Part shown: positions 40,636 to 44,044 of the stretch, piece after piece
How the letters are laid out: each line of letters begins with the position of its first letter
Numbering within the stretch: position 1 is the first letter of the stretch
Source of the DNA: an uncultured Thiocystis sp.
GTDB lineage: Bacteria; Pseudomonadota; Gammaproteobacteria; Chromatiales; Chromatiaceae
DNA length: 64,000 nt
Reading direction: 5' to 3'
Assembly (NCBI RefSeq): GCF_903866365.1
Contig: NZ_CAIPNF010000267.1
Location: 47,455-111,454, forward strand
Notes under the pieces: generated by a model
Database searches by the model: none
Seen by the model: only the letters and a program-made list of their open reading frames with translations
Told to the model about the DNA's origin: nothing
Translations under genes and position numbers: made by a program

Positions 40636-42807
40636 CTATCCCGCTGGCTCCAAACGCGCATAGGCCAGCACCAGCCATTTCGGGCCGACCTCCCGAAAAT
40701 TGACCTGGAGACGGGCATTGGTCCCGCTACCTTCCTGGTGCAGGATCACGCCCTCGCCGAACTTGGGATGCCGAACCCGCTGACCGAGTTGAAAGCCGCC
40801 GGCGACCGGCGTCCCGGCCTGGCCCCGCATCGGGACTGTCGCAGCCGGGCGACGGGCGACACCGCCACCGCGCACCTCTTCCACCAGTTCGGGTGGAATC
40901 TCGCGCAGAAAACGCGACGGCGAGGGATAGTCCTCGCGTCCGTAGAGACGGCGACTCTCGGCATGGGTGACGAACAATTGCCGCATGGCACGGGTCATGC
41001 CGACATAGCAGAGGCGCCGTTCTTCTTCGAGCCGGGCCGGATCCTCGGCGGAGAGACTGTGCGGGAAGAGACCTTCCTCGACGCCCACCAGAAAGACGAT
41101 CGGAAATTCCAGACCCTTGGCGCTGTGCAGGGTCATGAGTTGCACGCCATCCTCCAGCCGGTCGGCCTGGGTCTCGCCAGCCTCCAGCGCGGCATGGGCC
41201 AGGAAAGCACCGAGCGCATCGCCCGACTCCTCGTCCAGTTCATGCTCGAAACGCGCAACCGTTTCCACCAACTGTTCCAGATTTTCGATCCGATCCTGAC
41301 CCTTGCCGTCCTTGTTTTTTTGATAGAAAGTTGAGAGTTCGTTGACATCGATCAGATGTCTGGCGAGTCCGGCCAGTGTCCGGCTGTCGTTGTCTCCGGT
41401 CTGCGCCTGGATCAGTGCGATAAATTTGCGCAACGCGCCGCTCGCTCTCGGTCCCAGCGTGTCGGTGGCGGTCAGATCCAGCGCGGCCCGCCAGAGCGAG
41501 ACGCGGGATTCCCGCGCCTGCTGACGTAACAGATCGAGCGTACGCTCGCCGATGCCCCGCGTGGGCGTATTCACCACGCGCTCGAAGGCGGCGTCATCGT
41601 CCGGGTTGGCCACGAGGCGCAGATAGGCGAGCGCGTCGCGGATTTCGGCGCGCTCGAAAAAGCGCAGTCCGCCATAGACCCGATAGGGAATTCCGGCCTG
41701 GATCAGCGCCTCCTCGAACAGCCGCGATTGGGCCGTGGTGCGGTAGAGGATCGCGCACTCGTCGCGCCGACAGCCATCGGTCTCGACAAAACGGCGGATG
41801 CGCTCGATGACGAAGCGTGCCTCGTCCACCTCGTTGAAAGCGGTATAGCGACGGAGCGGCTCGCCGGCGCTGTCCTCGGTCCAGAGGTTCTTGCCCAGAC
41901 GGGTTGGATTGTGATCGATGAGCGCGTTCGCCGCGGCAAGGATATTGCCGGTCGAACGATAATTCTGCTCCAGACGGACCGTGCGCGTATTGGGATAGTC
42001 GCGCTGAAACGACTGGATATTTTCGACCTTCGCGCCACGCCAGCCATAGATGGACTGATCGTCGTCGCCGACCGCGAAGAGATTGTCGTTGCGCCCCGCG
42101 AGCAGTCGCAGCCAGGCATACTGGATGGCGTTGGTATCCTGAAACTCGTCGACCAGGATGTGACGAAAACGCTCCTGATAGTGATGCAGAATGTCCGGCC
42201 GTTCGCGCAGCAGTTCGAGCACCGAGAGCAGCAGATCCGCGAAGTCCAGCAGACCGCCGCGGGCACGCACCGACTCGTACTCGCGATAAACGCCGATCAT
42301 CTTGTCCAGGAAGAAATCGCCGCCCGCATCCAGATGCTGGGGGCGCAGACCCTCGTCCTTCTGTTTGTTGATGAAGCTCTGCACCTGGCGCGGCGGCCAG
42401 CGTGCCTCGTCGAGTTGCAGCGCCTTCAGGATACGTTTGACCAACCGGAACTGATCGTCCGCATCCAGAATCTGGAAGTGCTGGGGCAGTTTGGCATCCT
42501 GCCAGTGGGCGCGCAGAAAGCGATGGGCAAGGCCATGAAAGGTTCCGACCCACATGCCGCCGACCGGTTCTCCGAGCATGTCCTCGATGCGCCCGCGCAT
42601 TTCCCGCGCCGCCTTGTTGGTGAAGGTCACCGCCAGCACCGCCCAGGGCGGCACCTGCTCAACCTGAACCAACCAGGCGATGCGATGCACCAGCACGCGG
42701 GTTTTGCCGGAACCCGCGCCAGCCAGGATCAGCAGATTGCCGGCTTCGGCGGAAACCGCCTCGCGTTGGGCTGCATTGAGTGAGTCGAGCAGAAGGGAAA
42801 CGTCCAT
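40636..42807 (-). CDS. uvrD: DNA helicase II UvrD
   Basis: A 723-residue SF1A helicase acting in nucleotide excision and mismatch repair. Motifs in order: LNAAQREAV (Q motif), Walker A AGAGSGKT, DEFQDTN (II), DDDQSIYGWRGA (III), QNYRSTGNIL (IV), LMTLHSAKGLEF (V) and VGMTRAMRQLFVTHAE (VI). The C-terminal tail (FGEGVILHQEGSG, LQVNFREVGPKWLVLAYARL) is the UvrD/PcrA Tudor-like domain that binds RNA polymerase. It is transcribed away from the AT-rich DnaA-box region. Confidence 0.96.
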   Translation of the reverse strand: MDVSLLLDSLNAAQREAVSAEAGNLLILAGAGSGKTRVLVHRIAWLVQVEQVPPWAVLAVTFTNKAAREMRGRIEDMLGEPVGGMWVGTFHGLAHRFLRAHWQDAKLPQHFQILDADDQFRLVKRILKALQLDEARWPPRQVQSFINKQKDEGLRPQHLDAGGDFFLDKMIGVYREYESVRARGGLLDFADLLLSVLELLRERPDILHHYQERFRHILVDEFQDTNAIQYAWLRLLAGRNDNLFAVGDDDQSIYGWRGAKVENIQSFQRDYPNTRTVRLEQNYRSTGNILAAANALIDHNPTRLGKNLWTEDSAGEPLRRYTAFNEVDEARFVIERIRRFVETDGCRRDECAILYRTTAQSRLFEEALIQAGIPYRVYGGLRFFERAEIRDALAYLRLVANPDDDAAFERVVNTPTRGIGERTLDLLRQQARESRVSLWRAALDLTATDTLGPRASGALRKFIALIQAQTGDNDSRTLAGLARHLIDVNELSTFYQKNKDGKGQDRIENLEQLVETVARFEHELDEESGDALGAFLAHAALEAGETQADRLEDGVQLMTLHSAKGLEFPIVFLVGVEEGLFPHSLSAEDPARLEEERRLCYVGMTRAMRQLFVTHAESRRLYGREDYPSPSRFLREIPPELVEEVRGGGVARRPAATVPMRGQAGTPVAGGFQLGQRVRHPKFGEGVILHQEGSGTNARLQVNFREVGPKWLVLAYARLEPAG

Positions 42808-42838: not shown

Positions 42839-43130
42839 GCTGGATAAAAAGTCTCGCTGGATGTGCGATTCGATGGTTTCTGGCCGTTTTTAATAAAAAT
42901 AGATAAATAATACATGTTGTAATAATAAGTGCTGTGGATAAACTGATTTTTTGTATAAATTACTTTAGAAATATAGGCTTATATAAAAGAAAAGAAGTGC
43001 ATGGACACCGGCTGAAGCGGTGGATAACCAGTGTGCAATATTGCTCGACTATTCTTTGCACAAATTATCCACAGGTAGCCCCGGTTGTTTTGGTTGAGTT
43101 GTTATTTATTTAATATAAATCAATAACTTG
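42839..43130. other. oriC: Candidate replication origin (oriC) / DnaA-box cluster in AT-rich DNA
   Basis: This stretch contains two perfect DnaA boxes (TTATCCACA): 42933-42941 on the minus strand and 43065-43073 on the plus strand. One 8/9 match (TTATCCACC) lies at 43019-43027 on the minus strand and a weaker match (TTATCCAGC) at 42839-42847. Long A/T runs (about 42886-43000 and 43095-43128) contrast with the GC-rich surroundings and could be unwinding elements. Flanking genes uvrD (minus) and trxA (plus) are transcribed outward. A DnaA-regulated promoter or a DnaA-titration locus would look similar; dnaA itself is not in the window. Confidence 0.55.
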
Positions 43131-43333
43131 GATTCGTCTCCGACACTTGATCGAGAACCGGACGCCGTCGCCGCGGGGTGTTGATCGACGCCTTTGATCT
43201 TTGATGCGATGTTGGTCCTGGAACGCCTGGCTGGCGGACTGGCTTCCGCGACTTGGGCTTATCTTCGTGCCATTCGTTCCTGGCAGATTAAACTCCGAGT
43301 CTCAGATCCACGAATCCTTCGACCTGCATCCCT

Positions 43334-43738
43334 ATGTCGCATCCAAACCATCCCCATCCCAACATCTTCGATGTCGATACCGACCGCTTCCAGGCCGAGG
43401 TGCTCGACGCCTCCCGGTCGTATCCTATCCTGGTGGATTTTTGGGCCGACTGGTGCGCGCCCTGCCGCGCGCTGTCCCCGCATCTGGAGCGGGTGATCGA
43501 GGACCTCGACGGCCAGGTGCGGCTCGCCAAGCTGGAGGTCGACGAGGGCGAGAACATGCGTCAGGCGGGACACTACAAGGTGCGGGGCTTCCCGACCGTG
43601 ATCCTCTTTTGGGAGGGGCGGGAACTGTCCCGTTTCAGCGGGGCGCGTTCACGCTATCAGATTCGGGAATGGCTTCAACAGCATCTCGTTCTGAGCGGCG
43701 ACATCGAAACGCACAACAAGCCGATCCAGACAAAATAA
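43334..43738 (+). CDS. trxA: Thioredoxin
   Basis: A 134-residue thioredoxin-fold protein with the active site WCAPC (C41, C44), the conserved VDFWADWC strand and cis-Pro in GFPTVILFWEGRE. The first 20 residues (His/Pro/Asn-rich) are longer than E. coli TrxA. It reduces disulfides in the cytosol, presumably using thioredoxin reductase. It is the first gene to the right of the DnaA-box region. An ORF in another frame upstream (from 43194) has no protein-like features. Confidence 0.9.
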   Translation: MSHPNHPHPNIFDVDTDRFQAEVLDASRSYPILVDFWADWCAPCRALSPHLERVIEDLDGQVRLAKLEVDEGENMRQAGHYKVRGFPTVILFWEGRELSRFSGARSRYQIREWLQQHLVLSGDIETHNKPIQTK

Positions 43739-43741
43739 CTG

Positions 43742-44044
43742 GTGTCGTCCGCATTCCGATTAAAACACGCCGCGAGGGCGTCGCGGCGCCCGTCATTCGA
43801 GCTGACAGCGGTGGAATTCGCCCTGCTGGAGACGCTGCACGCGGCGCCCGGCCGGATCTTTTCGCGCGACCGGCTGATGGACCGTATCTATCGGGACCAG
43901 CGGATCGTCTCCGACCGCACCATCGACAGTCATGTGAAAAAACTCAGGCGCAAGCTCGCCGAGCTGCTGCCCGAGCGCGAGCTGATTCATTCGGTTTACG
44001 GGGTCGGTTATCGGTATGAAGATCTGGAGAACGCAGCGGACTAA
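43742..44044 (+). pseudogene. OmpR/BaeR-type winged-helix domain without receiver (truncated response regulator)
   Basis: A 100-residue ORF starting GTG 43742, 3 bp after the thioredoxin stop. Residues about 17-95 are a complete Trans_reg_C winged helix: FELTAVEFALLETLHAAPGR, FSRDRLMDRIY, SDRTIDSHVKKLRRKL, YGVGYRYE. The SDRTIDSH motif and context are closest to BaeR. The phospho-receiver domain is absent and the first residues are low-quality, so this looks like a remnant of a deleted baeR-like gene, or less likely an orphan DNA-binding protein. Confidence 0.65.

Follow-up and report, generated by a model that had tools for sequence, protein, structure and literature searches.

The window analysed here is a stretch of 64,000 nucleotides from an uncultured Thiocystis sp. 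and forms part of contig C267 of a draft genome (G000) of 5.52 Mb in 503 contigs. Within it a gap of 526 bp separates uvrD, encoding DNA helicase II by homology and the flank common to three congeners (40,636-42,807, minus strand), from a thioredoxin-like gene on the plus strand (43,334-43,738; 89.3 bits vs a cut-off of 96.8). This gap holds DnaA boxes, DnaA-trios and AT tracts. A preliminary description of the same DNA had noted that the two genes diverge and that dnaA, gidA and rpmH are not at the site, and both points hold: the canonical gammaproteobacterial flanks dnaA/dnaN, rpmH and gidA are absent, with uvrD and the thioredoxin-like gene in their place, and hemE is not a flank in the window. 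That leftward genes lie mostly on the minus strand was also borne out, by 18 of the 19 ORFs in 16,000-42,807 (uvrD counted); in 42,808-64,000 the count is 8 of 16. Beside the thioredoxin-like gene, at 43,742-44,044, lies a short OmpR-type response-regulator DNA-binding piece of 100 aa that is probably truncated.

The element itself spans 42,887-43,130 and, read toward uvrD, has the order (-)46(+)86(+), GCAC, TTATTATTA and an AT-rich tract. The 8/9 box TTATCCACC (43,019-43,027, minus strand) and the perfect box TTATCCACA (43,065-43,073, plus strand) make up an inverted pair whose starts are 46 bp apart, and this pair gives an inverted core, TGTGGATAA-N37-TTATCCAC. A second perfect box TTATCCACA (42,933-42,941, minus strand) starts 132 bp from the first and adjoins a trio module on the same strand, in which a 4-base spacer GCAC (42,929-42,932) is followed by three DnaA-trios TTATTATTA (42,920-42,928) whose complement gives 3'-AAT-5' repeats, according to the trio definition in the consulted part of PMC8287927. 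The two perfect boxes at 132 bp and the 8/9 box had been pointed out in the preliminary description and were recovered by our box search; for the weaker box that it mentioned we found two doubtful candidates on the minus strand, each with 2 mismatches, TTATCCAGC at the gap's uvrD edge (42,839-42,847) and TTATACAAA (42,950-42,958). AT-rich tracts, likewise described before, face uvrD (42,887-42,928, a predicted DNA unwinding element), lie between the boxes (42,943-43,000) and recur beyond them (43,085-43,130, GC 0.20). The GC content of 0.21 over 42,890-43,000 and of 0.31 over 42,890-43,130 falls in both cases within the lowest 0.01% when the 111-kb contig is scanned in stretches of the same length. 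The consensus for IHF binding is WATCAANNNNTTR, and it is fitted by a predicted IHF site, AATCAATAACTTG, on the plus strand at 43,118-43,130; the contig has 4 words of this consensus.

To see how unusual the cluster is we searched the whole draft. It contains 20 perfect boxes against 8 matches to a reversed control pattern, and the pair beside uvrD is the only case of two perfect boxes on one contig; by arithmetic, 20 sites placed at random in 5.52 Mb would include two no more than 132 bp apart with a probability of about 0.009. Boxes with up to one mismatch are not enriched in the window (7, equalled in 17 of 100 shuffles) and are only clustered. The inverted core, allowing two mismatches, occurs at one place in G000, at one in the congener G004 and at two in G005, and was not found in G001, G002, G003 or G006; its reversed control matched in G002 and G006 only. 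The preliminary description had called for a search for further box clusters, and in the window's own draft, from which the dnaA-dnaN piece is missing, the core thus stands at a single place. The strict box-trio pattern was found once in the contig and once in 79 sampled stretches of G004, both times at the element. Plain box counts were less distinctive in G004, where perfect boxes are not enriched (11 vs 12 in the control), two boxes with up to one mismatch lie within 150 bp of each other in 5 of the 79 stretches, and the element's own boxes are degenerate (TTATTCACA, TTATCCATC and TTATCCACA). A separate pair of perfect boxes with starts 26 bp apart was seen away from uvrD in G005 (C25:3092-3126).

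The element lies upstream of uvrD in both G004, a complete congener genome of 5,017,071 bp, and G005, and the UvrD proteins of these two are 95-96% identical to that of the window. In G005 two diverged copies stand in tandem between hemE and uvrD (L085:9549-10144), 455 bp apart, each with the same layout and its own trio module. An alignment of the four copies gave a mean column identity of 76% with the box places, the trios and the ATCAATAACTT of the IHF-like site retained. The box on the trio side, perfect in the window, keeps its alignment place in G004 and in both G005 copies (it reads TTATGCACA in copy A), the trios read TTATTA[TC]TA in all four, and ATCAATAACTT is invariant. This comparison shows boxes, trios and AT tracts to be kept beside uvrD in three congeners. 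That DnaA-box-like words came together in this AT-rich gap by accident would agree with the lack of any excess of one-mismatch boxes in the window, yet order, spacing and trios that survive in four copies at this level of divergence, and a core confined to one place in the draft, make such an origin of the cluster extremely improbable.

Conservation is one-sided. On the uvrD side the three genomes keep the same order, interrupted by small gaps, through at least some 26 kb within the extent compared; this collinearity stops at the element, with homology to G004 and G005 ending at 43,211 and 43,129; homology on the thioredoxin side begins at about 43,327, which leaves a junction zone at 43,130-43,327. 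The counterpart of the thioredoxin-like gene is located about 306 kb from the element in G004 and on another contig in G005, where about 4.4 kb of extra DNA also lies between thioredoxin and kinase. On its other side the element thus meets the thioredoxin-like gene in the window, hemE in G005 and, in G004, an IS5 element followed by dnaA-dnaN. We considered the thioredoxin side as part of the element and rejected this, since it is a rearranged neighbour. The order in G004 is dnaN(-), dnaA(-), IS5 element, core, uvrD(+), with the element 1.7 kb from dnaA. The IS5-family element (1,194 bp, L084:13065-14258) has near-identical copies in many sampled stretches of that genome and, because it stands between dnaA and the core without a target-site duplication, the adjacency to dnaA may be secondary.

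To place the element on a chromosome we turned to strand asymmetry. The window itself has no switch of GC skew at the site (-0.0025 to the left, -0.0203 to the right), which may be due to the right side being a rearranged segment. In G004 a search with the dif word gave one dif-like match, at 772,814 with 2 mismatches, in agreement with a skew terminus at 760-885 kb. The antipode of this site is 3.281 Mb, and the element at 3.127 Mb is 155 kb off, or 3.1% of the chromosome. Skew alone was ambiguous with 20 and then 44 stretches (with 44, a minimum at 3.885 Mb and a best origin at 3.885-4.01 Mb), and we therefore added KOPS, the coding strand and more stretches, reaching 79 stretches; these cover 1.58 of the 5.02 Mb, and dif was taken as the terminus. 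The coding strand then placed the origin best at 3.14 Mb (range 3.08-3.28), KOPS at 3.04 Mb (2.52-3.50) and skew at 3.00 Mb (2.86-4.00, not contiguous). The sum of the three, a rough measure that assumes their independence, is best at 3.00 Mb, 127 kb from the element, and stays within 2 log units over 3.00-3.22 Mb, an interval that includes the element. At 3.12 Mb the coding strand, KOPS and skew are respectively 0.3, 1.7 and 2.9 log units under their own best values. The preliminary description had looked to a GC-skew minimum at this point: combined with KOPS and coding strand the signal includes the site, whereas skew by itself does not favour it. For an origin at this place, position in G004 is good but not sharp evidence.

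We then asked what stands at the dnaA-dnaN gap, which was examined in 10 of 15 genomes of the same family outside the genus. It holds at least two boxes in 9 of the 10 and one box in G014, and in 7 of the 10 an inverted pair 45-46 bp apart is found. The gap is box-free in G004 (58 bp) and G005 (104 bp). Boxes in nine of ten relatives and none in these two congeners indicate a relocation. A denser cluster next to dnaA, which the preliminary description had weighed against an origin at uvrD, was sought in G004, where dnaA has one further perfect box nearby. The strict box-trio pattern matched only G021 among the 10 loci outside the genus, implying a looser trio part in these genomes. In G008 the gap (L238, 1,345 bp) carries a (-)46(+)98(+) box set twice at a distance of 1,120 bp, which makes a further origin-like duplication in tandem. 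The dnaA matches of G012 (L242) fall in separate pieces, and the gene looks split.

The window's own draft is silent on its dnaA region. Neither dnaA nor dnaN was found in it, only Hda-like and other weak matches; yidC was not found either, and a GyrB match below the cut-off is probably ParE. The draft is nonetheless listed as 100% complete. Since yidC and gyrB are missing too, the absence of dnaA and dnaN is most likely an assembly gap, and with dnaN, yidC and gyrB also missing from the draft we did not conclude that dnaA has been lost from this genome. The same absence of four genes would allow that, in the window species, the uvrD-side element is dormant or a secondary copy, with the working origin in the unassembled dnaA-dnaN piece or elsewhere, and the origin-like duplications in G005 and G008 would suit such a case. 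We regard this as improbable, given that the dnaA-dnaN gap is without boxes in G005 and in the complete G004 and that the window's boxes are as good as those in the uvrD-side copy of G005.

A scan of 110 uvrD loci, 700 bp upstream in each and with named loci drawn from the best 80 of 587, found 5 with either the core or a pair of boxes no more than 200 bp apart: the three congeners, Marichromatium and L143. The L143 boxes (Sansalvadorimonas), two one-mismatch words with starts 17 bp apart, were set aside as chance. In Marichromatium gracile DSM 203 the hemE-uvrD gap has four boxes (-, -, +, +) with a last spacing of 84 bp and an AT-rich end; its first spacing is 58 or 34, vs 46 in the element, the trio fit is poorer by eye, and the IHF word was not found in that gap. 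G010, Halochromatium sp. A10 and GSL.Bin27 have hemE and uvrD side by side and divergent, and the DNA between the two genes has no box with up to one mismatch. Marichromatium and Halochromatium provide the nearest named UvrD loci among the best 80 of 587, and in a tree of 26 chosen UvrD proteins the four carriers form one group with support 100/99. From this phylogenetic pattern, the simplest account would be that the element entered the hemE-uvrD gap a single time, before Marichromatium and the genus diverged, and the G005 order hemE-origin-origin-uvrD would be nearest to the ancestral one.

Boxes upstream of uvrD could also belong to a DnaA-controlled uvrD promoter or to a DnaA-titration or reactivation site, the latter having been offered in the preliminary description; E. 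coli datA and DARS are non-coding DnaA-control regions, as stated in the portion of PMC4585315 used here. The unremarkable box count of the element in G004 would fit such a role. As clusters of this kind occur at only 5 of 110 uvrD loci, the element is not a usual uvrD control region. A datA/DARS-like site is less favoured because of the box-spacer-trio module, the AT-rich flanks and the position, with a single inverted core in a complete genome lying inside the combined origin estimate, and the box-free dnaA-dnaN gaps of G004 and G005 also speak against it. We therefore consider a control site that is not an origin to be unlikely.

Taken together our results point to the element being oriC and having likely been moved a single time, out of the dnaA-dnaN gap and into the hemE-uvrD gap, in a common ancestor of this genus and Marichromatium, a reading to which we give a probability of about 0.84. 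The sequence evidence for an origin is strong, and of the explanations raised in the preliminary description a relocated origin fits best, with one core in the complete G004, inside the origin estimate, and a dnaA-dnaN gap free of boxes. From these features we infer DnaA binding, IHF binding, unwinding and origin activity at the element. DnaA-ATP would occupy the two inverted boxes (43,073/43,027) as well as the perfect box at 42,941; from this third box DnaA would extend onto the TTATTATTA trios, stretching one strand, so that the AT-rich tract facing uvrD could open, and a bend would be introduced at the IHF-like site (43,118). Replication would then proceed in both directions, the leftward fork co-directional with 18 of 19 ORFs on its side, and a later rearrangement would have placed the thioredoxin gene on the origin's other side.

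The state of dnaA in the other genomes leads us to speculate further. The usual dnaA block is broken up in G004, as gyrB and yidC are at 3.19 and 3.30 Mb. In G002 (L235), G003 (L236) and G006 (L234) dnaA gave no match and dnaN stands beside rnpA-yidC-mnmE (the neighbours were named with models in G002, yidC was located in each of the three, and the layout was taken from sequence). These three have no full-length UvrD at E 1e-180; 659-residue UvrD matches were seen in G002 and G003, with five matches in G003. Chromatium okenii has been published as lacking dnaA, according to the section of PMC13116554 available to us. A tentative scenario, which we hold to be possible and rather less than probable, is that a cassette of about 230 bp moved once, that dnaA, freed from it, parted from its old neighbours and that the cassette was duplicated in tandem in one species, as a stepwise route to DnaA-free life. 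Under this scenario G002, G003 and G006, which belong to the same genus, might, like Chromatium okenii, have lost dnaA, and might also have lost the uvrD-side origin, while dnaN stayed at the old rnpA-yidC-mnmE site, and the move into the hemE-uvrD gap might be a convergence on the alphaproteobacterial hemE site. G001 is the odd one out, with dnaA 2 kb from yidC, dnaN on another contig, and neither the inverted core nor a UvrD match at 1e-180. The GC3 of dnaA/dnaN in G005 and G001 (L086, L087, L237) is 0.42-0.44 vs about 0.56-0.81 for most neighbouring ORFs.

Gammaproteobacterial origins are normally sought beside dnaA or gidA, and this rule would mislead here. Within a single genus there seem to be a genome whose origin is near dnaA, others where its neighbours differ, one with two origins in tandem and some in which no dnaA is detected. 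Cultivable purple sulfur bacteria thus offer a way to test what ties an origin to dnaA and how dnaA gets lost. It is already known that oriC need not lie close to dnaA (PMC10225481, in the part consulted). New here appear to be the relocation of an origin within a family that still displays its former site, and the tandem copies; among the literature titles matched and listed none concerned an origin beside uvrD in Chromatiaceae, which is no proof of absence from print.

One likeness in layout is to the oriC of the dnaA-dnaN gap (rnpA-rpmH-dnaA-dnaN-recF-gyrB region), which shares the inverted pair at 45-46 bp in 7 of 10 same-family genomes and, by eye in most of these genomes, an AT-rich side with TAATAATA-like repeats. 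The element differs from it in lying beside uvrD, in the distance to the third box, 86 bp here as against 44 or 98 bp in G008, G009, G016 and G017, the four genomes where such a box is clear, and in that the G004 element faces the 5' and not the 3' side of dnaA. In Caulobacter and Rickettsia, Cori is described between hemE and COG1806, with named flanks that exclude dnaA, an IHF site, rearrangements at a flank and CtrA sites TTAA-N7-TTAA (PMC1914354, in the passages used here). Judged against those passages the element resembles Cori in having hemE as one flank in G005 and Marichromatium, a predicted IHF site and a rearranged flank, and differs in its gammaproteobacterial host and in uvrD as the other flank; the likeness is by convergence and the element is not a member. 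The basal unwinding system of B. subtilis consists of a DnaA box, a spacer and DnaA-trios (PMC8287927, same part as above), and the element matches this account with TTATCCACA, a 4-base spacer, three trios and AT-rich DNA beyond, and departs from it in having one perfect box by the spacer and no tandem second box among those with up to 2 mismatches. B. subtilis and H. pylori origins are called bipartite in the portion of PMC4285127 consulted; G005 likewise has two box clusters close together, although, set against that account, its clusters repeat one layout with trios in each, 455 bp apart in one hemE-uvrD gap. Like E. coli datA, DARS1 and DARS2 the element would be a DnaA-binding region outside dnaA, its binding being predicted, and it is set apart from these control regions by the trio module and by its place in the G004 origin estimate.
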